Shown here in pieces: positions 5,231 to 32,551 of a DNA stretch of 32,551 bases (position 1 is its first letter; each line of letters starts with the position of its first letter). Position numbers and translations under genes: made by a program. The stretch spans positions 1 through 32,551 of the forward strand of contig NZ_JAENYR010000039.1 in the NCBI RefSeq assembly GCF_016841685.1, written 5' to 3'. The notes beneath the pieces are model-generated. The model was not told where the DNA came from, searched no databases, and saw nothing but the letters and a program-made list of their open reading frames with translations. This stretch comes from Thiohalomonas denitrificans. Lineage in GTDB: Bacteria > Pseudomonadota > Gammaproteobacteria > Thiohalomonadales > Thiohalomonadaceae.

Positions 5231-7159
5231 TCAAAAGAACCGTCCCGCCTGGTGTTGCTGTCCGAGTGCGTTTTGCAGGCCGCTGATTACCGAAAACGCA
5301 TCCTTCAAATAGCCCCGCTCCAGAGAGGAGAGCTCCGAGGGGGCCACATAGTTGTCCGGTTCCTCGCCCCGTTTGATCTGTTCGGCCTGGTGCCGCGCAC
5401 GCAGGGTGACGATGAATTCGAATGCATCTTCCAGATTTTCAGCGCTCTCACGACTGAGAGCCGATACCTCCGCGGCGATCTTGAGGCGTTCGCGGGTGTT
5501 CACTTCCGGCAATCCTGCGGAGAGCGCATAGACCCGGGCCAAATCCACGGCCGGTATAATCGCACGCCTTTTAAGATCCAGGCGCTGTGCATGGTCGCCC
5601 TCACCAATCAGCACGAAATGACGGAAGAATCCCAACGGTGGCCGGTTTTTCAAGGCATTAGCTGCCAGGTGGGCGAGAAAAATCCTGTTGTTGTGTGTTT
5701 GTTGCAGGACTTCGGCATGGAGTTGCTCATGGAGAGCGGGCTCGCCGTAGATAATCCGCATATCGAAGAAATTGGAGGCAAGCATCAGCGCCTTTTTCTC
5801 CGGCTGAGTTATCCATCGGTCGAAATAGCGCCGCCAGATGCGATAGGGCTGACGCCACTCCGGGTTCGTGGCCATTACCTCACCCGGACAGTAAGTGAAG
5901 CCGCAGGCATCGAGGCCATCAGCCACGAATCTCGCCAGGGATTCGAAGTAGCCATCGTGCCTGGCCGGGTCGAAATCGTCAGCGAGTAACAGCGCATGGT
6001 CCTGATCCGAGTGCACGGTCTGTTCGCGGCGTGCCAGCGAGCCCACAGCAAGCCAGGCGAAAGGCACCGGGGGCGGCCCCAGCTGCTCCTGGCACAGCTC
6101 GATAAGGCGCCGGGTTATGGCTTCCGTGATGGATGAGATGGTCTGACCGACATGATAACCGGTTGCTCCCGACGCGATCATCTGCACCTGCAGTTCCGGA
6201 AGATCGGCACAGGTCCGGGTCAGCGTCTCGACCGAAGTGCAGCGGCGGACGTCGCCTACCAGGTAGACCGCATTGGCACTCTGATAGCGGACAAGGTCGT
6301 TGCTGGAGACGACACCGATGACGCGCCCGTGATCGATGACCGGCAGATGGTGGACCGACAGCCGCGTCATGGTGATCAGGGCCTCGAATCCGCGGGTCTC
6401 CGGTTCCACCTTGTGCAGCCGGCGGGTCATGATCCCGCTTACCGGCTGCCCCGGATCACGGTCCTCGGCCAGACAGCGTGAGCGGAGATCGCGGTCAGTC
6501 ACGATGCCGACCAGCTGCCCCTCATCCATGATCAACAGGGAAGAGACACGGGCTTCGGTCATCAGTCGTGCAGCCTCCCCGATGCGGGTTTCGGGCCGGG
6601 CCATCACCGGTTCACGGACAATAAGGCTGCCGATGGGGACGCTGAGCAGTCCCGTGTGGGAGCTGCGAACCGCCTGTAACGATTCCAGCGCGCGCCGAAG
6701 CCGGCCACGAACCGACTGGTTGAAGTGTTCTGCGAATTGCGGATGCTCTTCCCTGATTGTCTCGAGCCGTTCGCAAGGCAGCAGATAAAACAGGCTGTCC
6801 TCGACCGTCAGGGCTGTAAATTGGCCCGTTTCACCCTCTCTGCAAACGGAGGAGTAGATCTCGCCTTCGCCGATTTTGTCGATGAGCTCATCACTCTGGT
6901 CACGCAGTTCCACCGCCCCTTTGCGGATGATATAGAGATAATCGCCATCGGCATCAGGAGGAGGAAGGGGAGTGCCGCGTCGAAGGTAACGGACCGACAG
7001 GTCCCGCGGCAGCCGCTCAAGGGCCTCCTCGGGCAGATGGTCAAAAGGGGGATGGCCAGCGAGGAAATCCCGGATTTCAATCAGCTCGACGTTCAACGTG
7101 GACTCTCGTGGCGACTCGCAATCGCAAACATAAATGAAACCCCAGAGGACACCGAGCAT
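5231..7159 (-). CDS. DUF294 nucleotidyltransferase-like protein with cNMP-binding and CBS domains
   Basis: The N-terminus is a cyclic-nucleotide-binding-like barrel (IRKGAVELRD, roughly residues 35-140). It is followed by a pair of CBS domains (GIVTDRDLRSRCL and GVVSSNDLVRYQ, about 170-310). Next is a GlnD-like nucleotidyltransferase core with AVGSLARREQTVHSDQDHAL near 385-405, and then the DUF294 C-terminal domain. It looks like a cytoplasmic signalling protein combining ligand sensing with a possible nucleotidyl transfer step; target and product are unknown. The ATG at 7159 gives 642 residues. A TTG at 7096, just before NVELIEIRDFLAGHPPF, would give 621 residues and aligns better with the N-terminus of the paralogue at 9684-11573, so the true start may be there. 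Confidence 0.88.
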   Translation of the reverse strand: MLGVLWGFIYVCDCESPRESTLNVELIEIRDFLAGHPPFDHLPEEALERLPRDLSVRYLRRGTPLPPPDADGDYLYIIRKGAVELRDQSDELIDKIGEGEIYSSVCREGETGQFTALTVEDSLFYLLPCERLETIREEHPQFAEHFNQSVRGRLRRALESLQAVRSSHTGLLSVPIGSLIVREPVMARPETRIGEAARLMTEARVSSLLIMDEGQLVGIVTDRDLRSRCLAEDRDPGQPVSGIMTRRLHKVEPETRGFEALITMTRLSVHHLPVIDHGRVIGVVSSNDLVRYQSANAVYLVGDVRRCTSVETLTRTCADLPELQVQMIASGATGYHVGQTISSITEAITRRLIELCQEQLGPPPVPFAWLAVGSLARREQTVHSDQDHALLLADDFDPARHDGYFESLARFVADGLDACGFTYCPGEVMATNPEWRQPYRIWRRYFDRWITQPEKKALMLASNFFDMRIIYGEPALHEQLHAEVLQQTHNNRIFLAHLAANALKNRPPLGFFRHFVLIGEGDHAQRLDLKRRAIIPAVDLARVYALSAGLPEVNTRERLKIAAEVSALSRESAENLEDAFEFIVTLRARHQAEQIKRGEEPDNYVAPSELSSLERGYLKDAFSVISGLQNALGQQHQAGRFF

Positions 7160-24068: not shown

Positions 24069-24977
24069 TCAGGTCTGTGCGAGCAATCGGCGGGCGAGCA
24101 GGGCGGTGCCGTAGGCCGCTTCCGAATGGATGGGCTTGACCATGGGAACGCCCGTCAGTCGGCCCCGAATCTTTTCCCAAACCGGATTGGAGGCGCCGCC
24201 GCCGACGCTGAAAATGCGTTCGGGGTAAGGGGCGCCGAGTTGCTGCAGTTTTTGATAGGCGGCGGCCTCGATGGCGGCGATCCCTTCCAGCAGTCCCTGA
24301 AGGAACAGGGCATCGTCGGCGGGTCGCGGTGCGAGACGAGGGGCGAAATCGGGATCATTGACCGGGAAACGCTCTCCCGGTTGTAGCAGCGGGTAGTAAT
24401 CGAGCCCGGACGGGTGTTCCGGATCGATGCGCCTGCTGAGTTCGGCCATCCGGGATGGCGTGAAAAAGTGCTTGAGGACCGCGCCGCCGGAATTGGAGCC
24501 TCCGCCCACCAGCCATTGGTTCCCCAGCGGCTGACTGTAGACACCGTACGCAGGGGCGAAGATGGGCCGGTCGGCGATCACCTTGGTGACCAGGGTCGAA
24601 CCGAGAGAGCTGATGCCATCCCCGAGCCGTCTGGCACCGGTGGCGAGGATGGCGGCGGTGCTGTCCGTGGTTCCCGCCATGACCATGGTCGCTTCAGGCA
24701 GGTGCCAGTGAGTCGCCAGGCTCCCTTTCAGGCGGCCCAGAGGTGTTCCCGGGGCGACCACCTTGGGTAATTGCTGTTCGGAGATACCCAAGGCCTGAAG
24801 CCATTTCGGCCAGCGGCGCCGGACTGGATCCCAACCGAGTTTGAGGACGTTGTTCTCATCCGAGACGCCCGGAGTGCCGGTCAGCCGGGCTGCGATCCAG
24901 TCACCCTGGGTCGCCACCCGAGTCGGCTTTACGCCGGTGTGGTGTAGCGCGCCGCCATATTTGCGACGCAACGACAC
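24069..24977 (-). pseudogene. FGGY-family carbohydrate kinase, 5'-truncated by the prophage
   Basis: The remaining 300 residues correspond to the middle and C-terminal parts of an FGGY kinase, most like the D-ribulose-kinase group: DWIAARLTGTPGVSDENNVL, then GTTDSTAAILATGA, the ATP-site segment SLGSTLVTK, and FSVGGGASNPVWEKIRGR. Full-length relatives have some 420-500 residues, so the N-terminal lobe with the first phosphate loop is missing. The frame runs back to a TAG at 24993-24995, immediately beside the phage terminator. A GTG at 24977 could start a fragment, but an active kinase is not expected. The missing 5' part should lie beyond the far end of the prophage. Confidence 0.82.
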
Positions 24978-24995
24978 CGACTTTGCAACAGGCTA
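24938..24995. other. Phage-host junction zone with candidate transposase end sites
   Basis: Phage sequence ends and FGGY sequence begins somewhere in this stretch. It contains the near-palindrome TTGCGACGCAA (24961-24971) and a related TTTGCAACA (24982-24990), which could be end-binding sites of a MuA-like transposase. A TG start compatible with Mu-type ends occurs at 24938 (TGTGGTGTAG) and at 24983 (TGCAACAGG). If the second is right, the codons for AKSVSLRRKYG belong to the kinase. The five-base target duplication cannot be seen without the other end. Confidence 0.45.
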
Positions 24996-25014
24996 AAAGG
25001 GGCTTCCGCCCCTT
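24995..25014 (-). terminator. Rho-independent terminator at the phage right end
   Basis: AAGGGGC (24997-25003) pairs with GCCCCTT (25008-25014) around a TTCC/GGAA tetraloop and is followed on the minus strand by a T run. The stem touches the last base of the formyltransferase stop codon, so it closes the com operon at the phage end and protects the host gene from phage transcription. Confidence 0.88.
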
Positions 25015-25613
25015 CAACCCTCCTTTAAATACCCGCCAGCGAAGGCCGGTTCCCAAGTGGTGACCGTCTGGTCTTGTGGTACCCCGGTGATGACCCCGTT
25101 TTCTATCTCCTCCAACACCTTCCGGAACAGCCTGAGGCCCATCGGGGCCAACTGTCGGCGCCATAGTTCGGCGGGGGTCTCACCCGGTCTGATGTGGCAC
25201 CAGTCCTGGGCGGCGATTGGGCCGGTGTCGGCACCATCATCCATCCAGTAGACAGTGCCCCCGGTGACCGCCTCACCCATGTGGATGGCCCAGCGCACGG
25301 CGTCACGGCCGCGGTGGCGGGGTAGTAGAGACGGATGGTACCCGATGGCGCCAAGTCTGGCCTGGCGCCGCGCCCCGGCGTCGAGGAAACAGTGGGCATG
25401 GGCAGCCACGACCAAGTCAGTCCCGGCGGGCACCATCTCGGCAGTCAGGCGCGCGGATACCTTATAGGCCGGAATAGCCTCGTTCCATGCGGCTTGGTAG
25501 AGCCGGTCTTCCGGGGTGGGAGCATATACGGCCGCCAGTTCGTGTCCAAGCGCCATGCAAAGACGGAGGGTCTCGGTTCCTAACCACTTCTGGCCAACGA
25601 GGACTATCTTCAT
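25014..25613 (-). CDS. Formyltransferase-fold protein of the prophage modification cassette
   Basis: The 199-residue protein has the Rossmann-like formyl_trans_N fold shared by GART, Fmt and ArnA. The signature loop GYHPSLLPRHRGRDAVRW lies at 91-108 with His93. The second catalytic region, TGGTVYWMDDGADTGPIAA, has Asp129. The catalytic Asn that precedes His by two in Fmt and GART is Gly91 here. There is no C-terminal tRNA-binding domain, so it is not methionyl-tRNA formyltransferase. The start is ATG at 25613, which overlaps the ABC/GNAT stop (ATGA). The longer frame upstream lies inside that gene. It is the last gene of the com operon. By context it may make or transfer a one-carbon group for a modified DNA base; this is inference. 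Confidence 0.8.
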   Translation of the reverse strand: MKIVLVGQKWLGTETLRLCMALGHELAAVYAPTPEDRLYQAAWNEAIPAYKVSARLTAEMVPAGTDLVVAAHAHCFLDAGARRQARLGAIGYHPSLLPRHRGRDAVRWAIHMGEAVTGGTVYWMDDGADTGPIAAQDWCHIRPGETPAELWRRQLAPMGLRLFRKVLEEIENGVITGVPQDQTVTTWEPAFAGGYLKEG

Positions 25614-26740
25614 GATGCATCCTCCCGGCCGAGATACCGGAAACCCTGAACGGCCCGGAAATGGCCGCCGTAGCCGGAAGCGGCACCGGTGCTTCCCTTC
25701 CTGGCGTTGCTCTTTCGCATCGAGGCGGCGCTCCTTGCTTTTGAACCGCCGTACAGCTGTGCGCTCACCTGAGTCCAAACCGGGTGGCGTCGAAGTGCAG
25801 CGGCCAAGCCCGGGTGCGATGTATGGAATAGAGTCCGCAACGGTTTTTGGTACCGGTTGCAGCCTTGCAGCCACAGGTCACACACTGCGTTCAGGAAGCG
25901 GAGCCCGATGCCGGCGCCTTGCCACTCCGGCATCACCACTAGCCGGCAGGCGCGGGCCTCGATGAGGCCCGGCCTGGTGCTTACGGCCACGTGGGCTACT
26001 GGCTCCCCCTCTACCGTGCCGATGTAGTTGGTTGCTGCGATCATCTTGGGTAGCTTCAGATAGTGATGCGGCTCAAACAGGGGCCAATATCGCCAATCGG
26101 TCTGCCGAATTTCGAGGTCGAAGCGGGGGCGTCGCCAAAGCCCCCTCCCGGAGAATCTCCCTGTCGCCGTGTCATACACCCAGTCCGGCTCGAGCCAATC
26201 GATGATGTCGTAGTGGCAAGAGAGCAGCACGCATTGGCCGCCGGTGCGGCGCCAGGCTTTGCCAAACGCCAAGGCACCGAACCGGGCGATCTGCCGGTCG
26301 ACAACACTGGTGAACTCGTCCACGACGACCCGCTTGGGGGCCTCGCAGATTAGCCGGGCCAAGTCGGCGCGGAACTTTTCGCCGTTTGATAGCACCGAAT
26401 GCGGCCGCAACCAGGCCGGTACACTGCCGAGGCCTACCGCAGCAAGGGCGCCGGTCACTTGGTTGAAGTCACCGTGCGGTGCAATCGCATCAATGATCGG
26501 TTTGCGAGCCGGCCAGCTCGGCGCATATACAGCCGCGTTGCCCCATATCTCCCGTCCGATGCTGGATTTACCCGAGCCGCTCGGGCCAACGATAACCCCG
26601 AGGCCCCAGTCCGGAACGTCGATCGGCAGCTCTGCGGACAGTTCGAAGTTGGCCCCACTGTCCACATTAAATAGCGATTTAACTCGGGCTGAACGGTAGG
26701 AGTTGAACTCCTTGCAGTGATGGTGGATTTCGACTTTCAT
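25610..26740 (-). CDS. ABC-ATPase / GNAT acyltransferase fusion (Mom-position protein)
   Basis: The 376-residue protein has two parts. Residues 30-200 are an ABC-type ATPase with Walker A GPSGSGKS (52-59), signature LSNGE (117-121), Walker B RVVVDEF (137-143) and H-loop His176. There is no transmembrane part, so it is a soluble ATPase. Residues 205-345 resemble a GNAT acyltransferase, with the acyl-CoA-binding motif VVMPEWQGAGIGLRFL near 268-283. A basic Ser/Arg/Lys-rich tail (about 330-365) could bind nucleic acid. It lies where Mu has mom, whose product is also GNAT-related, downstream of Com. I start it at ATG 26740, overlapping the small gene's stop (ATGA); the frame extends six codons further up. 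A DNA-base-modifying role is likely but unproven. Confidence 0.78.
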   Translation of the reverse strand: MKVEIHHHCKEFNSYRSARVKSLFNVDSGANFELSAELPIDVPDWGLGVIVGPSGSGKSSIGREIWGNAAVYAPSWPARKPIIDAIAPHGDFNQVTGALAAVGLGSVPAWLRPHSVLSNGEKFRADLARLICEAPKRVVVDEFTSVVDRQIARFGALAFGKAWRRTGGQCVLLSCHYDIIDWLEPDWVYDTATGRFSGRGLWRRPRFDLEIRQTDWRYWPLFEPHHYLKLPKMIAATNYIGTVEGEPVAHVAVSTRPGLIEARACRLVVMPEWQGAGIGLRFLNAVCDLWLQGCNRYQKPLRTLFHTSHPGLAAALRRHPVWTQVSAQLYGGSKARSAASMRKSNARKGSTGAASGYGGHFRAVQGFRYLGREDAS

Positions 26741-26889
26741 ACTGCTACCACCTTGCACTTATGGCCATCCTTCCGCAGCCGGTTATAGACCTGCTCCTGG
26801 TGCGATTCATCGCGGCAAATTACGATGACCCCGTACCGTTTCCGGTACTTAAACCCGTTTCGCCCTGGTGTCTTCTTTTTGTCGGTCAC
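26737..26889 (-). CDS. Small basic protein (50 aa) between com and the ABC/GNAT gene
   Basis: A GTG at 26887-26889 opens a 50-codon frame that overlaps the 3' end of com by 41 bases in another frame and ends with TGA at 26737, overlapping the next ATG. The product begins MTDKKKTPGRNGFKYRKRYG and continues VIVICRDESHQEQVYNRLRK, ending in CKVVAV. A basic N-terminus is followed by a beta-helix-beta pattern (VIVIC, HQEQVYNRLRK, CKVVAV). Overlaps on both sides suggest translational coupling. I know no function. Its placement suggests it is part of the modification cassette or an adaptor for Com-dependent translation. Confidence 0.7.
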   Translation of the reverse strand: MTDKKKTPGRNGFKYRKRYGVIVICRDESHQEQVYNRLRKDGHKCKVVAV

Positions 26890-27052
26890 AGTGCTTTCCT
26901 TTTGTGTGAACGACGCTCTCAGGCGTTCTGGTACGGGGTTCTAGGCCCTCAAAGTTGTTCAGTGTCCCGCATCGCGGGCATTTTGCTTGCAGCCGTTCGG
27001 CCAGGCCTTTGGCCAGCAGCCGACGGCATGCTCCACAGCGGTATTCCTGCAT
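26849..27052 (-). CDS. com: Com-like zinc-finger translational regulator
   Basis: The 67-residue protein has the Com pattern of phage Mu: an N-terminal CxxC (Cys6, Cys9 in YRCGACRRLL), a second CxxC (Cys25, Cys28 in KCPRCGTLN), then a hydrophilic tail with KGKHCDRQKE that is also similar to the end of Mu Com. In Mu, Com binds mRNA and allows translation of the adjoining mom gene by melting an inhibitory structure. Here the downstream genes are different, so Com presumably controls the 50-residue and ABC/GNAT genes. The ribosome site (AAAGG) is weak. It overlaps the next frame by 41 bases. Confidence 0.85.
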   Translation of the reverse strand: MQEYRCGACRRLLAKGLAERLQAKCPRCGTLNNFEGLEPRTRTPESVVHTKGKHCDRQKEDTRAKRV

Positions 27053-27228
27053 GTCGTGAGCCTTTCTCTACTTCGTGATAGGCTCTCTGCGCCGCGTGCA
27101 CGTGGCAGAGGGCCTTGCTGGCTCACGGTGCCAATTTCACCGTGGGTTGGGTCCGGGTAGCAGTGGCAGCTGCTGCCCGGTCGCCCTCTCTTCCTTTCTC
27201 TTCCTCAACAACGCTGAACTATTAGTTA
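27053..27228 (-). promoter_or_regulatory. Structured leader of com with three inverted repeats
   Basis: Between the fibre-assembly stop and the com ATG lie three hairpin candidates. CCGGGTAGCAG (27153-27163) pairs with CTGCTGCCCGG (27170-27180), 10 of 11. CACGGTG (27124-27130) pairs with CACCGTG (27138-27144), perfect. CTCTGC (27085-27090) pairs with GCAGAG (27105-27110). None has a following T run, so they look regulatory rather than terminating. Mu controls mom at this place through Dam/OxyR and C protein; no GATC occurs here, so the Dam-dependent switch is absent. Confidence 0.5.
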
Positions 27229-27825
27229 TCATGCTGTGGGACGGATGGCATCGAGGGCGGCCGTCGCGTCCGCCCTCGCTGCATCGACGCCCACGTGGTC
27301 TAGTGCAGCATTGACGGCCGCCTTTCCCATCAAGCGTTCCCTCCGGATCGATTCGATAGCCGCGTACCACTCCACGGCGGTGGCCATGATGTCATCAGCG
27401 GCGGCGGTCGGCGTCATGCCCGATGCATCGGACCAATCCTGCACGCATGCCGGTACGGCGTCGGCCGGATAACCAGCGGCCTTGAATTCCTCGGCTTGTC
27501 TCTCGGCATGCTGATATTCGATATCGATATAGCTGCCCGGTGAGGGGTACGCTGCCCGGGCAGCACCAGCGGCGCTGTCGATCGCTGTTCTAGCGGCTAT
27601 CTGGTAATCGGCCAATGGCGGGAGCGGCGGTGTATAGGCCACGACCTCACCGGTATCGGTATCCCACCGACGAGTGCCCGGGTTTTCCAAGAGTTCGCGC
27701 CATTGGGCTTTTGTGATTTCGACCAGAGTGTCGGTGGGGCTGATGCCGACTTTTTCGGCATGCTTAGTGTCCCGGTAGAATCCGGTGGCGCGGCCATTTG
27801 TGTCGATCGTTGCGTACATAATCAT
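27229..27825 (-). CDS. Tail-fibre assembly protein (DUF4376-like C-terminal half)
   Basis: The 198-residue protein has an N-terminal part (MYATIDTNGRATGFYRDTKH, then ITKAQWRELLENPGTRRW and DTGEVVAY) typical of phage tail-fibre assembly chaperones, with their short beta repeats and WRELL motif. The Ala-rich helical second half ending VEWYAAIESIRRERLMGKA resembles DUF4376-type domains. It should help trimerise or attach the fibre encoded just upstream. The start ATG at 27825 overlaps the fibre stop (ATGA), so the two are coupled. Confidence 0.8.
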   Translation of the reverse strand: MIMYATIDTNGRATGFYRDTKHAEKVGISPTDTLVEITKAQWRELLENPGTRRWDTDTGEVVAYTPPLPPLADYQIAARTAIDSAAGAARAAYPSPGSYIDIEYQHAERQAEEFKAAGYPADAVPACVQDWSDASGMTPTAAADDIMATAVEWYAAIESIRRERLMGKAAVNAALDHVGVDAARADATAALDAIRPTA

Positions 27826-28472
27826 ATTCCCAATGCTAGGAAGGAGGTAACTGCGCCGCTAAGGATTGCCGCGTCACTGTGTGTACAGATGTGCGTAAAT
27901 CCAGCGGCGTCATATGGGTTGTACCCGGAGTAATATCCGGAGCCCGCTAAGGGGGTGTTAAACAATTCGGTCCAGATGCCAAACGGAGTGGCATTGAACG
28001 CTATTGGAAATGTCACCAGAGTGGACGTCAGCTGGGAGGAGTTAATATTGTGGGAAAAACTACCCCATTGGAGGATCAATCCCCCGGGCAGCACCTGATG
28101 ACCGGGGACCGTATGGCTCTTGTCGAACGATGCCAATCCCGCCGGGGTGATAGCGCGTTGATCGTCTGTGCCGCCTTGCACTTCTAAAGCTGTCGCTAAT
28201 TCGATGATGCCCTTGAAGGTGTCAGTCGCTTGGCTGAGCCCCAGGCCCGATAGTGCGGCCAAAAGCTGTCCCAGATCGTCATCACTGGGCGTTATGCCTG
28301 CTGCGGTGATGATCGAACGCAACTCCTCGCCGATTTTGTAAAACCAGAAGGGTCCGGGCGTCGTGGCCTCATTAACGCCAGGAACAGCGGATTGTGGAAA
28401 GCCGTTGCTGGGACTGGCCGGTTTTACTGGCGGCGTGCCGCTGGCATTGGCTAGATAGTTACGCGGGTCCAT
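27822..28472 (-). CDS. Phage tail fibre protein (short)
   Basis: The 216-residue protein begins MDPRNYLANASGTPPVKPAS, a Pro-rich baseplate-attachment type of start. It has a middle region that resembles phage fibre repeats (ATDTFKGIIELATALEVQGG followed by DDQRAITPAGL). The C-terminal distal part, with GGLILQWGSFSHN and a Gly/Tyr-rich end, looks like gp53-type tail-fibre tips. It is short for a host-binding fibre. An exceptionally complete Shine-Dalgarno precedes it. The downstream gene is its likely chaperone. Confidence 0.82.
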   Translation of the reverse strand: MDPRNYLANASGTPPVKPASPSNGFPQSAVPGVNEATTPGPFWFYKIGEELRSIITAAGITPSDDDLGQLLAALSGLGLSQATDTFKGIIELATALEVQGGTDDQRAITPAGLASFDKSHTVPGHQVLPGGLILQWGSFSHNINSSQLTSTLVTFPIAFNATPFGIWTELFNTPLAGSGYYSGYNPYDAAGFTHICTHSDAAILSGAVTSFLALGI

Positions 28473-28477
28473 TTATC

Positions 28478-28490
28478 GATCACCTCCTTA
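28478..28490 (-). promoter_or_regulatory. Thirteen-base Shine-Dalgarno of the tail-fibre gene
   Basis: The minus strand reads TAAGGAGGTGATC, perfectly complementary to the last 13 bases of bacterial 16S rRNA (GATCACCTCCTTA). The first three bases are also the stop codon of the gp48 gene. It lies five bases before the ATG at 28472. It should give strong initiation of the fibre gene after termination of gp48. Confidence 0.85.
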
Positions 28491-29075
28491 GGTGTATTCA
28501 AACAGTGCGATGGTGTGAGCCGGTTTGCGTCGATTGACGGCACACTCCAGTCGAGTGGTCGGGGCGACTTCGCCGAGGGATTCATCAACGGTTGAATCGG
28601 CATTGAACTGTTGGACGGGCGGCATCGGCGCGGTGAGCTTCCAGGCGAATTGCCAGTCCGCACCGTAAATGGGGGCGTCCACGGTTTCGTCGACGGTGTG
28701 CGGGTCGTATTCGGCGATCGCCGAATCGTCGAAACCGAGGCTTCCAGCCACCCCGATGAAGTAGTTCCGCGACTGACCACCGACGCTGGTCAGTATGTCA
28801 ACCAGTGCAGCCCGGCGCTCATCGATGGTGGTCCCCAAGCCGCTGCATGTATCGGGCAGGCCCGCAAAGGCCTCCCACTCCGCCAATAGCTGAAGTGTGG
28901 TGCGCGGGTCGGCTTCATTTATCAGTGCTTCGGCGGTCGCATCGACGCGGGCGAACTCTGCGGCCAGCGCATCGAGCAGCGCAGAGAACGTGGTGTCCGG
29001 CGCTCGCAAACCACGCCAGAGCACACCGCGCGGTAGCAGAGCCCGAAGCTGGTTGAGGTAGTCGCTGGCACCCAT
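28488..29075 (-). CDS. Mu gp48-like tail protein (DUF2313/YmfQ family)
   Basis: The 195-residue protein begins DYLNQLRALLPRGVLWRGLR and continues with LLDALAAEFARVDATAEALINE and DPRTTLQLLAEWEAFAGLP, the hallmarks of the YmfQ/DUF2313 family that follows the baseplate J protein in Mu and related phages. It is a structural baseplate or tail-tip component. Its ATG shares bases with the gp47 stop (TGATG). Its stop lies in the fibre gene's Shine-Dalgarno. Confidence 0.88.
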   Translation of the reverse strand: MGASDYLNQLRALLPRGVLWRGLRAPDTTFSALLDALAAEFARVDATAEALINEADPRTTLQLLAEWEAFAGLPDTCSGLGTTIDERRAALVDILTSVGGQSRNYFIGVAGSLGFDDSAIAEYDPHTVDETVDAPIYGADWQFAWKLTAPMPPVQQFNADSTVDESLGEVAPTTRLECAVNRRKPAHTIALFEYT

Positions 29076-30157
29076 CAGGAGATCGCCTGCCAGGTAATGA
29101 CGCCGAGCGTGGCCAAAGCGCCGAGGCTCGGCGCCACGTCCCCAGAGGGTGAAATCAGGACGTGGTCAATCTCGCCCTCGGCACCGCTGATGGCCTCGCG
29201 GATGTGGCTGATAGGGATGGCGCCGCTGCCGTTACCGTCCTCGACATTCGCCTCCCTTCGGAACAGATCCGTCAGCGACGCCTCGACGGCTGCCTGCACG
29301 TCCAAGGTATTGGGTGCGAGCTGGATCGTCATATCGACCGGCTCCACTGTCGGCGCGTAGGCAGTCACATCCGCCGTGACCGGGCGGACGGTATCCAGAT
29401 AGTCCTGTACCGCCTGCACCTCGGCAGCGTCTGGGATTATCAGGGCGTCATCATCGCGGACGAAAAAAACGCCTACGGTGCCGAGGCCGGCCCACGCCGG
29501 CATTACCCAGGCGCGGGTGACGCCTTCGACCTCCAGTGCCCAAGCCTCGTAATCGGCGATGGCTCCGCCCTGCGGTGAGCGTTGTACACGGGCTTTGAGC
29601 CGGTCACGTAAGGAATCGTCGCCCTCCTCATCCGCTCCGCCGGTAAGCCCGTCGCCGGCCACTGACACGGTGGCTGTCGAGTACACGCCCGAAATGGGCG
29701 AGACGAGCGAGAGTGTTACTCCGGGATCGGCATTCGTATCCTGGCCGCCCTCGACGGCCGTAACGGCAATTTCGGCCACGCTGCCGGTGATGGTGCCTTC
29801 GGCGTCGGTGGTGTACTCGACGCTGTCCGCCCGTTGCAGCGTTGTGCCGGCTGGTATCACTGCGCCGTCGGTGCCGGTGAAATCGACTATGCCGACCGCC
29901 GGCGCCGCGGGCTTGCGGCCGATGCCCCACCAGCTCGCGTGGCGTTCCAGGTAGTTGGCATCGGCCGTACTCGGGATGATTTGCCTGGCCATCCAGGCGA
30001 GAAAACCGTAGAGCCCGTGCACCGCGCCGGCGATGGCGCGCACAATCGCGAAGAGCACGGAGCGGCGCAGGCGGGGATCAGTGCCGGGCAGGCGGGATTC
30101 GATGTCCGACTGTATGCGGTCGATTAGTGCGGGCAGTGTTGGGCGGTTAAACGCCAT
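29075..30157 (-). CDS. Baseplate J-like protein (Mu gp47)
   Basis: The 360-residue protein has the Baseplate_J pattern. The N-terminal segment LIDRIQSDIESRLPGTDPRL is followed by AVHGLYGFLAWMARQIIPST, a central beta domain (PAAPAVGIVDFTGTDGAVIP), the conserved DDSLRDRLKARVQRSPQGG, and a C-terminal segment with WVMPAWAGLGTVGVFFV. It forms wedge proteins of the contractile-tail baseplate. It begins immediately after the gp46 stop and overlaps the gp48 start. Confidence 0.93.
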   Translation of the reverse strand: MAFNRPTLPALIDRIQSDIESRLPGTDPRLRRSVLFAIVRAIAGAVHGLYGFLAWMARQIIPSTADANYLERHASWWGIGRKPAAPAVGIVDFTGTDGAVIPAGTTLQRADSVEYTTDAEGTITGSVAEIAVTAVEGGQDTNADPGVTLSLVSPISGVYSTATVSVAGDGLTGGADEEGDDSLRDRLKARVQRSPQGGAIADYEAWALEVEGVTRAWVMPAWAGLGTVGVFFVRDDDALIIPDAAEVQAVQDYLDTVRPVTADVTAYAPTVEPVDMTIQLAPNTLDVQAAVEASLTDLFRREANVEDGNGSGAIPISHIREAISGAEGEIDHVLISPSGDVAPSLGALATLGVITWQAIS

Positions 30158-30616
30158 CTATGCAGCCTCCAAATCGAGATAGAACACATCGTCAAAGGGC
30201 GTGCGGCCCGGCAGCGTGATGGTTAGGTAGAGGGCAAGAACGCCGCGGCCGATGTCATTGCGCCACTCGGCCTCTGTCTGCACCGCCGTGGCCACGCTGT
30301 CCTCGATGAGCCATGCCAGGGCCGTCTCGGCATAGGTGCGGGCGCGTTGAAGCACATCGGCCGTCTCTTTTTCCCGGCTGAGCAGCCACAGGAGGGACCC
30401 TTCACTGTCGCCGTCGTGCGGCAAATAGGTGTCGTGCCAGGAGCCGCGGCGATCATCGGTGCCATCGGGGATGTCGTCGTCGGGCTCTGCTCGCGCGTCG
30501 GTAAATAGCGAAACAATGACCGCAGAGCGCAGGCCGTCATCGGTGGCCAGATCCGGGCCGTCGAGGGCCAGGTCCCATCCGGGGGTGGTGTCGTCTTGAG
30601 TGAGCATCAGATCCAT
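30158..30616 (-). CDS. Mu gp46-like baseplate protein
   Basis: The 152-residue protein of the phage GP46 family begins MDLMLTQDDTTPGWDLALDG and contains LRSAVIVSLFTDARAEPDD, GSWHDTYLPHDGDSEGSLLW and RARTYAETALAWLIEDSVA, a series characteristic of the gp25-like wedge in Mu. It shares one base with the gp45 stop (TAATG) and abuts gp47. It is a part of the baseplate wedge. Confidence 0.9.
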   Translation of the reverse strand: MDLMLTQDDTTPGWDLALDGPDLATDDGLRSAVIVSLFTDARAEPDDDIPDGTDDRRGSWHDTYLPHDGDSEGSLLWLLSREKETADVLQRARTYAETALAWLIEDSVATAVQTEAEWRNDIGRGVLALYLTITLPGRTPFDDVFYLDLEAA

Positions 30617-31338
30617 TACTGCGGTGCCCCCGTTGTGCCACCTTCAGGATTGGAATGGACGTGCCCCTTGGCGCTGATGCCGTCCACGGTCACATCGCCG
30701 CCAGTCACCTCCAGGCTGCCGGATACCGTCGCCGCACCACCGGCCGCACCGGTCACCGCCAAGCCACCGACGGTGGCGACACCGGCCACGCTGGCGGTGC
30801 CGCCCACGGTCGCATTGCCGTCGATATCGGTATCGCCGCCGATGGTGGTGTCCCCGCTGATGTCGGTATTGCCGTTCACGGTCAGATTGCCGTTGATGGT
30901 GACGTTGCCGTTGTGGGTCGAGGTGGCGTTGACCTCTACGGTCGGCGCGGTGACTTCGACGTGGTCCACGGAGTTGATCAGAATGCGGTCGCGTTTGAAG
31001 TGGATCACGTTGCCGAGATCGTCGTAAAGAACCTGCTCGCCTTCTGCGAGATTCCGAACTCGGAACTGTCGATTGGCTACGGCGATCGCTACTGTATGGT
31101 CACGGTTGGCTTCGACGGCGGCGGCCAGTACTTCGCGGCCATTGGCGGGGGCGTGGGCGGTGCGGCCGTAGCCTTCGAAGTGCTCGACGTCGTCGACAGT
31201 CTCATCGCGAAGCAGCTCCACCTGCAGGGTCTGCATCAGGGTGCTCGTGTCGATAAGATGCACCACGCCGCGGGTGATCATTACCTTGATCTTGCGGCGT
31301 AGCGGCCGGATCAGCTTTCGCCAGGTTTCGCCGTTCAT
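30616..31338 (-). CDS. Baseplate spike / gpV-like protein (Mu gp45)
   Basis: The start at 31338 (MNGETWRKLIRPLRRKIKVM) overlaps the gp44 stop (ATGA), giving 240 residues; an upstream extension of 43 residues is Arg-rich noise. After the OB-like domain (IDTSTLMQTLQVELLRDETV) comes a stretch of short VTINGNLTVNGNTDISGD-type repeats (about 130-215), which make the triple-stranded beta-helix needle. The C-terminal end GHVHSNPEGGTTG contains the HxH pair that in Mu and P2 spikes binds iron at the tip. It pierces the host outer membrane. Confidence 0.92.
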   Translation of the reverse strand: MNGETWRKLIRPLRRKIKVMITRGVVHLIDTSTLMQTLQVELLRDETVDDVEHFEGYGRTAHAPANGREVLAAAVEANRDHTVAIAVANRQFRVRNLAEGEQVLYDDLGNVIHFKRDRILINSVDHVEVTAPTVEVNATSTHNGNVTINGNLTVNGNTDISGDTTIGGDTDIDGNATVGGTASVAGVATVGGLAVTGAAGGAATVSGSLEVTGGDVTVDGISAKGHVHSNPEGGTTGAPQ

Positions 31339-32375
31339 CCCCAGCCCCCTTCGTCGTCTTCCGCTGGCAGGGGGATAAGATCGAACGCCTCGGGACCCAT
31401 CACGCCCAGTTTGGTGCGGCGGCCGCTTTTGCCGCGGACGAACTCCACGCTGGCGATCATCAGCCACTCGCCGTCGAATCCACTCCAGGGGTCGTTCACA
31501 TAAACCAGCCGGTTGGGCCGCCAGATATCATCCTTGTGCCGCCAACCGGTGACGGTGTAGGCCGCAGAGCGGGAGCGGCCGTAATTGACATTGCGCTGCC
31601 ACTCGGCCCGGCGCTTGGCCCCGGCCGGGTCGGTGCTGCCCTCCATCACGATGGTGGTAGGCCGGTAGCGGATAACCGTGTCTTCGGCCCGCCCGAGGAT
31701 GTGGGCTGCATCTGCGCCCATCGTTTCGTCCGACCCAGGGCGTTGCCCGGGGAAGTAGTAGTGGCTGAAACGGTTGCGGTGCGAATGCTCGGCTTCGGCC
31801 TCCTCGATGTTCTCGCCCATGACCAGGGCGGTTTCTATTCGCTGGTTACTGGCGCGGGTGATGACGAGATTACCGTCGGCGTTGCCGACGAGGCGCACGG
31901 CTTGGGCTCTTGCTTGCTTTTCGAGAAACTCAAAGCCGGTTTCCTCTTTCTCGGCCACTACGGCACTTATTCTCTGGGTCTCTGCCTCCTCAATCACGGT
32001 GATGCCGTACGGCTTTGCTACTTCCCTGGCTAAAGAGGCAAGCGTTTGGTTCACATACCGCCTATTTCTTGGATAGTCGGAGCAGTCCACTAGGTCCGCA
32101 ATCTTGGAACGACCGGCAATCTGGACAGTACGGCTGTCGGGCCGCGTTCTAGGTCGCACCCGATCGATGTAGCCCGTCACGATCTTCTCTTTGCCCAGAA
32201 ACACCTCGGCGGGGCTGCCCAGGCGAATGGGGCGGCGCTTCATCGACTCCGCCCACTTGTCCGTGATGGTGAAACTGAAATCGTCGGCCGCGGCCTCGAT
32301 AGAGCGGTTCACGCTCAGCTCTTTCCAGCCGTAGTAGAGCTGGCCGCCGATGTGGAGGGTGATGTCATCACGCAT
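31335..32375 (-). CDS. Mu gp44-like baseplate hub / tail protein (gpP)
   Basis: The 346-residue protein of the gpD/gp27-like hub family has an N-terminal barrel (ITLHIGGQLYYGWKELSVNR, DDFSFTITDKW) and a second barrel (FLGKEKIVTGYIDRVRPRTR, VQIAGRSKIADLVDCSD). It also has the segment FEFLEKQARAQAVRLVGNAD common to phage late control D proteins. It forms the baseplate centre that holds the spike made by the next gene. The start overlaps the gpN end by eight bases. Confidence 0.92.
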   Translation of the reverse strand: MRDDITLHIGGQLYYGWKELSVNRSIEAAADDFSFTITDKWAESMKRRPIRLGSPAEVFLGKEKIVTGYIDRVRPRTRPDSRTVQIAGRSKIADLVDCSDYPRNRRYVNQTLASLAREVAKPYGITVIEEAETQRISAVVAEKEETGFEFLEKQARAQAVRLVGNADGNLVITRASNQRIETALVMGENIEEAEAEHSHRNRFSHYYFPGQRPGSDETMGADAAHILGRAEDTVIRYRPTTIVMEGSTDPAGAKRRAEWQRNVNYGRSRSAAYTVTGWRHKDDIWRPNRLVYVNDPWSGFDGEWLMIASVEFVRGKSGRRTKLGVMGPEAFDLIPLPAEDDEGGWG

Positions 32376-32551
32376 TCAGCACCTCCAGTTCCTCGCCGCC
32401 AGGCACGAAGCCCGGGTGGCGGATTCGATTGCGGTCGATGATTTCACTGTCGCGGGTGGCGTCGCCATAGAGCTGGTGGGCGACCACCAGGGCCGGCAGG
32501 GTGGTGGCGGGCTGGTAGGTGGTCAGCTCCGGCAGCCGGGCGCCACGGCTG
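32368..32551 (-). CDS. DNA circularisation protein gpN-like (Mu gp43), C-terminal end only
   Basis: The 61 codons at the window edge are in frame to TGA at 32368 and read LPELTTYQPATTLPALVVAH, then QLYGDATRDSEIIDRNRIRH and PGFVPGGEELEVLNA. The end closely follows the known C-terminus of Mu gpN/gp43-type proteins (arginine-rich IRHPGF then PGG). Its 5' part is beyond the window. It is translated just ahead of gp44. Confidence 0.85.
   Translation of the reverse strand, partial: SRGARLPELTTYQPATTLPALVVAHQLYGDATRDSEIIDRNRIRHPGFVPGGEELEVLNA

Follow-up and report, generated by a model that had tools for sequence, protein, structure and literature searches.

A Com-headed ABC-ATPase/GNAT cassette with a formyltransferase in the mom position of a Mu-like prophage: a candidate system for acylating phage DNA

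What does a Mu-like prophage carry where Mu has com and mom, if mom itself is missing? The question is raised by a 32,551-nt stretch of Thiohalomonas denitrificans DNA (contig NZ_JAENYR010000039.1, positions 1 to 32,551; the whole stretch is called the window below), in which four minus-strand genes stand at the end of a prophage. A preliminary description of the locus had proposed that a multi-gene hypermodification system replaced mom. The four frames it had placed there were all confirmed by family matches. We conclude that the cassette is probably a DNA-modification system. More specifically, we give an even chance to a Com-activated system that acylates phage DNA bases and has swappable acyl-CoA-making partners, with formyl-CoA possibly being the donor here. 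The formyl-thioester step is less sure than the DNA-modification role. The features of the locus, in window positions, are the following.

26849..27052, minus strand: com, encoding a 67-residue zinc-ribbon translational activator (PF10122 Zn_ribbon_Com, E 9.9e-14; phrog_6417, E 2.8e-15)
26913..26926, minus strand: Com-binding hairpin ACGC-CTGAGA-GCGT, within com, 23 nt ahead of the GTG of the small gene
26737..26889, minus strand: stand-alone ParB-type C-terminal tail of 50 residues (phrog_28816, E 8.7e-22), starting within com
25610..26740, minus strand: ABC-ATPase/GNAT acyltransferase fusion (ABC-GNAT) of 376 residues, a predicted DNA-base acyltransferase (phrog_11143, E 1.4e-155; PF00005, PF00583)
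25014..25613, minus strand: FDH/HypX-type formyltransferase of 199 residues, a proposed formyl-thioester maker (PF00551, E 1.1e-21; phrog_9240, E 7.9e-64)
24995..25012, minus strand: terminator-like hairpin GGGGC-GGAA-GCCCC-TTTT, 3' of the last cassette gene, read from the sequence
24943..32551, no strand: right part of the Mu-like prophage; its right end is 24943 and the window stops inside it
24938..24942, no strand: target-site duplication CCACA (5 bp), in an FGGY (xylulokinase-like) gene

The set recurs well beyond this prophage. By tblastn, the ABC-GNAT was matched in 77 of 50,697 phage records. Nineteen of these had at least 53% identity, and a formyltransferase was found nearby in 18, namely Komp_PAO1_1, ten Gordonia phages, five Porphyromonas phages and two faecal phages; neighbouring genes were read for three of these records. 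The nineteenth, MT835521, was absent from the formyltransferase records listed (60 of 62). We also collected 164 loci, comprising the best 80 from GTDB genomes, the best 80 from IMG/VR, the window and three annotated phages. These loci are related and partly duplicated between the two collections, so the counts are not independent and favour close relatives. In profile searches, 160 of 164 loci had the tail within 1.5 kb upstream of the ABC-GNAT (gap of at most 15 nt in 154), and 134 had the formyltransferase within 1.5 kb downstream (gap of at most 60 nt in 121). Ten of the 30 loci lacking the latter end less than 100 nt past the ABC-GNAT, leaving 134 of 154 testable loci with a formyltransferase. 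It was missing in the other 20, and the near clade therefore does not always need it. According to their titles, the genome loci come from Proteobacteria, Acidobacteria, Planctomycetota, Verrucomicrobia, Chloroflexi and Bacteroidota. Among 77 proteins encoded upstream in these loci (of 133 frames), the most frequent PHROGs, with 25 of 255 families listed, were those of the baseplate, tail and tail fibres. Another set (A7) comprised 81 of 87 sequences. The relatives in this sample are thus largely from phages or prophages; homologues residing mostly outside phages with metabolic neighbours, the outcome that the preliminary description had named as contrary to its proposal, were not what we found. 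The set is not peculiar to Mu-like phages.

Recurrent co-occurrence with com, which the preliminary description had singled out as a check, was also observed. A profile search covering 1.5 kb detected Com upstream of the ABC-GNAT in 79 of 164 loci; Com is an add-on to the ABC-GNAT set. The window protein has the two CxxC pairs described previously (C6/C9 and C25/C28), and the four cysteines are invariant in the 25 members aligned (of 60 sequences). In 73 of the 79 Com loci, the start codon of the downstream gene, picked by a simple ribosome-site score, lies within com, and in 71 the tail and ABC genes share 4 nt. In Komp_PAO1_1, com (L001, ~5684-5860) is unannotated in the record, where it is overlapped by a short frame annotated in a different reading frame.

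According to passages of PMC6483171, systematic evolution of ligands by exponential enrichment with a Com homologue yielded CC(N)2-3GAG in a hairpin loop, with a variable stem and a C-G closing pair. The window hairpin matches this motif (CC-TGA-GAG), including the closing pair; its counterpart in Mu is ATGC-CTGCGA-GCAT. Early folding of some leaders had revealed recurring short hairpins with a C...GA loop. A first pattern, derived from some ten leaders and tallied in the set to which they belong, occurred in 57 of 64 leaders with Com versus 5 of 71 without, and a version with a stricter loop and a longer window in 44 of 79 versus 13 of 79 and 15 of 79 in controls. The claim made here is based instead on a recount with the published motif, to which a strict hairpin adds three more base pairs. 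For this recount the 79 leaders were reduced to 64 by removing duplicates and dropping six Com loci without a placeable tail start inside com. At least one hairpin was found in 53 of these 64 distinct leaders and two in 25, as compared with a mean of 1.33 and a maximum of 5 in 200 rounds of dinucleotide shuffling, and with 1 of 71 leaders lacking Com. Moreover, the stem covaries between loci: the flanks of CCN2-3GAG were complementary in 76 of 110 occurrences, where 20.8 were expected with the 3' flanks redealt (maximum 34 in 2000), and in 1 of 31 occurrences in leaders without Com. RNAalifold on MAFFT-aligned leaders gave almost no consensus structure, probably because the hairpins shift position, and the motifs were therefore counted instead. 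By analogy, translation of the cassette seems to be switched on by Com, using the same kind of RNA-binding protein and hairpin as Mu.

The genes that Com precedes elsewhere bear on what the cassette does. In profile searches of 80 further Com loci from IMG/VR, five had an ABC-GNAT or tail, three had Mom and 72 had other genes. One downstream frame per locus was then assigned to Pfam for 69 loci, including those with Mom: 31 matched D12, 14 N6_N4, 4 C5 and 3 Mom. These counts are per family, with a protein that matches two families counted twice, so a DNA methyltransferase or Mom lies downstream of Com in up to 52 of the 69. Two frame choices affected the tally: that of L276 was swapped for one already shown to be a methyltransferase, and that of L262 missed its methyltransferase. 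The remaining frames comprised five with DUF642 and a few with other Pfam families or no match. One Colicin M-like frame follows Com among loci L262-L341. The published hairpin was present in 47 of 63 distinct leaders of these further loci. Com mostly heads DNA-modification genes of unrelated folds, and a DNA-modification role of the cassette is therefore likely by position. Mu-like prophages such as FluMu and Pnme1 reportedly carry adenine methyltransferase (Dam-type) genes in place of mom; like the cassette, these would replace mom by a DNA-modification gene, but they are said to methylate with a single gene.

The small protein, to which the preliminary description had assigned no clear role, matched the C terminus of a ParB-like protein. 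Its residues 8-50 are 46.5% identical to the C terminus of gp1, the ParB-like protein that Gordonia phage NHagos has in the same slot. In 54 loci, the tail is preceded in frame by at least 110 residues, the length by which we called ParB fusions; 26 of 47 distinct tail fusions matched ParB_N (E 0.001). The window protein is the 50-residue tail alone and lacks the ParB N-terminal domain. Com accompanied none of the 54 ParB-length fusions and 79 of the 106 stand-alone tails. When the phage collection was searched with the 50-residue protein (E up to 0.5), 16 of 17 records recovered were also in the ABC-GNAT list; the seventeenth, from a Vibrio phage, matched weakly (E 0.4). The tail family had no match in 38 host relatives or 14 control genomes. 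As judged from sequence, the small protein corresponds to the C-terminal tail of the ParB-like proteins that other phages have in this slot. Most simply, it would be a docking piece for the ABC-GNAT, either alone or carried by a ParB-like protein.

The ABC-GNAT gave a full-length, two-domain match to phrog_11143 with ABC and GNAT motifs intact, and both ABC_tran and Acetyltransf_1 were above the Pfam cut-off. In 99 aligned ABC-GNATs (of 138 sequences), down to 31% identity, Walker A (GxSGxGK), the signature (LSxG), Walker B with its catalytic Glu (DE) and the H-loop His of the ABC part were invariant, as were the GNAT residues RxVxxPxxQGxG. The protein is expected to be an active ATPase and an acyl-CoA-binding enzyme. 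The structure model had a mean predicted local distance difference test (pLDDT) score of 90.6, and the 50 Foldseek matches listed are ABC-type ATPases as far as titles tell. A plasmid search with the ABC-GNAT returned 883 records, three of which cover 80% of the query; among 10 listed, seven match the ABC part only. An in-genome search for phrog_11143 was positive in all 14 control genomes and was not used as evidence.

Two other assignments of this protein were considered and set aside. The preliminary description had noted that Mom is itself GNAT-like, but kinship of the GNAT domain to Mom was not borne out: against three Mom sequences, hhalign gave probabilities below 1% (P-values 0.12-0.44) both for the entire protein and for its GNAT part, and Mom (PF25680) was not among the Pfam matches of the ABC-GNAT at E up to 1. 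An HHY-type motif is common to the GNAT domain and Mom but is not significant. PADLOC, searched for a defence system, matched the ABC-GNAT to mad3 (E 6.6e-9) and mad8 (E 2.4e-4) and the NHagos ParB protein to MTase_II (E 6.3e-7), and returned nothing for the other three cassette proteins.

The formyltransferase had as its best PDB match the hydrolase domain of FDH (4qpd), with a profile E of 4.4e-41 compared with 1.2e-28 for the best Fmt. In structure comparison, the model (pLDDT 96.1) scored Z 28.3 with 4qpd (VIA), 27.2 with the best Fmt and ~21 with HypX. H93 and S95 are kept in 133 of 133 family members and D129 in 132; the fold and the catalytic His, Ser and Asp are those of the FDH/HypX type. 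The amine-directed enzymes Fmt, ArnA and PurN are marked by the Asn of N-x-H, two residues ahead of the catalytic His, as in the host Fmt (LNVH) and host PurN (LNIH). At the same site, FDH (IIYH) and a host HypX-like protein (LIVH) have Ile, and the window protein has Gly (IGYH). Among the 133 members, this position 91 is Gly in 113, Ile in 7, Ala in 7, Ser in 4 and Val in 2; Asn occurs in none. A host gene (L345, 238-1917, minus strand) is built like HypX, with formyltransferase and enoyl-CoA-hydratase parts in one frame. According to passages of PMC6802093, a phosphopantetheine thiol receives the formyl group from the FDH domain, and formation of formyl-CoA has been proposed for HypX. By its residues and family matches, the window protein looks like a member of this thiol-directed branch, from which we infer a formyl-thioester product. 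The one-carbon enzyme of the preliminary description would thus be of a thiol-directed type that suggests a formyl-thioester donor.

More distant relatives point to other possible donors. The formyltransferase was not found in 80 distant ABC-GNAT loci, in 54 of which the tail was detected. Seven of the 80 have aspartate decarboxylase-like frames and seven CoA-transferase-like frames; six have both, and eight have either or both. In five, the decarboxylase frame overlaps the end of the ABC-GNAT by 4 nt. Neither kind of frame was found in near-clade loci. In Jace (L182), the decarboxylase matched PF02261 (E 2e-33) and was accompanied by a CoA_transf_3 match that covers only the first 92 of 227 residues (E 2.2e-8). 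Such a pair could yield beta-alanyl-CoA. Other distant loci continue into terminase or unrelated genes; the set of distant-clade neighbours (A13) comprised 56 of 83 sequences. One locus (L184, 3035-4138) has a second ABC-GNAT copy behind the decarboxylase/CoA-transferase pair, making tandem paralogues. An amidoligase (PF12224), a Vsr endonuclease and a short-chain dehydrogenase, each a possible accessory enzyme, were seen as single cases near distant ABC-GNATs.

These observations are consistent with the following mechanism. By analogy with Mu, Com would bind one or two hairpins in distal com mRNA and turn on translation of the tail, ABC-GNAT and formyltransferase late in infection. The formyltransferase would transfer the formyl group of 10-formyl-tetrahydrofolate to a thiol, most simply that of CoA, to give formyl-CoA. 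The GNAT domain would then pass the acyl group to a DNA base at an exocyclic amine, N6 of adenine or N4 of cytosine being the probable sites, and the ABC ATPase may meanwhile clamp or remodel the DNA. What the sequences show is the gene arrangement, the Com RNA element and the identity of the ParB-type tail; substrate, product and the part played by the ATPase are inferred. The tail, homologous to an element otherwise found on a ParB-like protein, would bind the ABC-GNAT. Like DNA modified by Mom, the product may withstand host restriction. In a few related phages, the aspartate decarboxylase and CoA-transferase-like protein would replace the formyltransferase and supply beta-alanyl-CoA. In its most specific form, the proposal is that the FDH/HypX-type enzyme and the ABC-GNAT produce N-formylated DNA bases via formyl-CoA, on a modular platform in which the partner is swapped (beta-alanyl-CoA in Jace and the like), the ParB-type tail provides targeting and Com provides control in Mu-like phages. 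We regard this full version as less likely than not.

Several observations weigh against DNA acylation with a formyl thioester. DNA binding by the ABC-GNAT, DNA acylation and restriction resistance are predictions from sequence. Thiol specificity is deduced from one residue and family resemblance; the structural Z-scores of FDH and Fmt are only ~1 apart, and passages of PMC6802093 attribute the His-Ser-Asp triad to Fmt and ArnA as well. No link to Mom emerged from the hhalign comparison with three sequences, the formyltransferase is missing from the 20 testable loci noted above, a strict hairpin is missing in 11 of 64 Com leaders, no Com was detected with 27 of 106 stand-alone tails, and Com heads the DUF642 frame in 5 of 69 loci. 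As to the replacement of mom, the mom slot does hold a set, headed by Com, that most likely serves DNA modification and would include an acyl step as well as a one-carbon step, but Com is not constant and the set is not specific to Mu-like phages.

An alternative, favoured by the fold that the formyltransferase has in common with Fmt and ArnA, is a two-step route. Here the base would first receive an aminoacyl group from the GNAT, and the amine of that group would then be N-formylated by the formyltransferase, in the manner of Fmt on Met-tRNA or PurN on glycinamide ribonucleotide. The decarboxylase/CoA-transferase loci hint at aminoacyl-CoA donors in the family, but the absence of the N-x-H Asn from every aligned member and the best profile match to thiol-directed FDH make this route unlikely. 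We consider it similarly doubtful that the ABC-GNAT modifies host protein or RNA in a host take-over, with Com merely timing late expression. GNATs acylate many substrates, and passages of PMC7824862 discuss phage GNATs that are predicted to modify host proteins; against this, the other partners of Com are mostly DNA methyltransferases and Mom, ParB-like proteins occupy the partner slot, and several distant members lie close to terminase genes. Finally, the kinship with the FDH hydrolase domain, the closest relative, and the loci that do without the enzyme would fit a 10-formyl-tetrahydrofolate hydrolase that alters one-carbon pools and is merely co-transcribed with the modification gene. Its regular position behind the ABC-GNAT across several phyla, mostly at close spacing, and the other CoA-type enzymes that take its place in some distant loci make this quite improbable. 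Acylation of DNA bases by the ABC-GNAT remains our preferred reading.

The placement of the cassette at a phage end is well defined. The four genes form the last 2.1 kb of the prophage, whose last base is 71 nt past the last cassette stop codon; in Mu, annotated mom ends 115 nt from the phage end. Of the ATGA overlaps reported throughout by the preliminary description, those at the tail/ABC-GNAT and ABC-GNAT/formyltransferase junctions are present, but com and the small gene overlap by 41 nt instead. The terminator it had placed at the phage end can be read as a hairpin in the sequence, but was absent from the output of a terminator scan whose rule needs five T. The right end was set at 24943 because CCACA occurs at both prophage junctions (the right in the window, the left on another contig of the assembly, C155) and the host flanks, once joined, give a 438-residue stop-to-stop kinase frame. 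The window part of the FGGY kinase gene (24069-24942) has no start, and the matching first part is on C155. Both halves of the xylulokinase-like gene split by the prophage were thus recovered (window 24069-24977 and C155 4698-5150). The C155 half adjoins a repressor-like gene and a gene for a 662-residue MuA-like transposase at the left end of the prophage. Further inside, homologues of Gp48, GP46, GpP and Baseplate_J of Mu are encoded. With a MuA transposase, a 5-bp duplication and Mu-type tail genes, the element is a Mu-like transposable phage.

The cassette resembles several known systems in part. It shares with Mu com-mom the position at the phage end, com upstream, a downstream start inside com, the Com hairpin and GNAT-type chemistry. 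It differs in having no Mom homologue, a GNAT domain without detectable relation to Mom, and three genes that add an ABC ATPase, a ParB-type tail and a formyltransferase. The phage enzyme is like the FDH (ALDH1L1) hydrolase domain and the HypX N-terminal domain in its fold, catalytic His and Asp and lack of the N-x-H Asn, with Ser as in FDH, but it is a stand-alone protein of 199 residues without a fused carrier-protein, dehydrogenase or hydratase domain. The prediction that an ABC ATPase coupled with a GNAT acylates DNA is reportedly due to Iyer et al. 2013, known to us through a citing paper. Passages of that paper (PMC7824862) give the prediction for a DNA base, name phage pT24 and describe the same domain pair as in the cassette; they do not name a formyltransferase, ParB tail or Com, all three of which the cassette has. 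A search record taken to be that of pT24 has a homologue that is 32% identical over 85% of the ABC-GNAT query. Whether the set had been described, which the preliminary description left open, can thus be answered in part: the ABC-GNAT as a DNA-acylating system is already predicted, but no description of its combination with Com, the ParB tail and the formyltransferase, or of the formyl-CoA reading, was found in the literature searched, a search outside which most subscription papers fall. As described in passages of PMC12839542, the Dpd 7-deazaguanine modification system likewise pairs a base-modifying enzyme (DpdA) with a ParB-like protein (DpdB); Dpd exchanges the base by a transglycosylase, whereas acyl transfer is predicted for the cassette, and the two are likened by description, not homology.

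If the proposed mechanism is true, acyl and possibly formyl DNA bases would join the known phage hypermodifications, and formyl-CoA would have a part in the modification of nucleic acids. The mechanism would also account for an operon that is poorly annotated although phages and prophages from several bacterial phyla carry it, and Com would serve as a marker of phage DNA-modification genes, with an RNA element for which genomes can be scanned.

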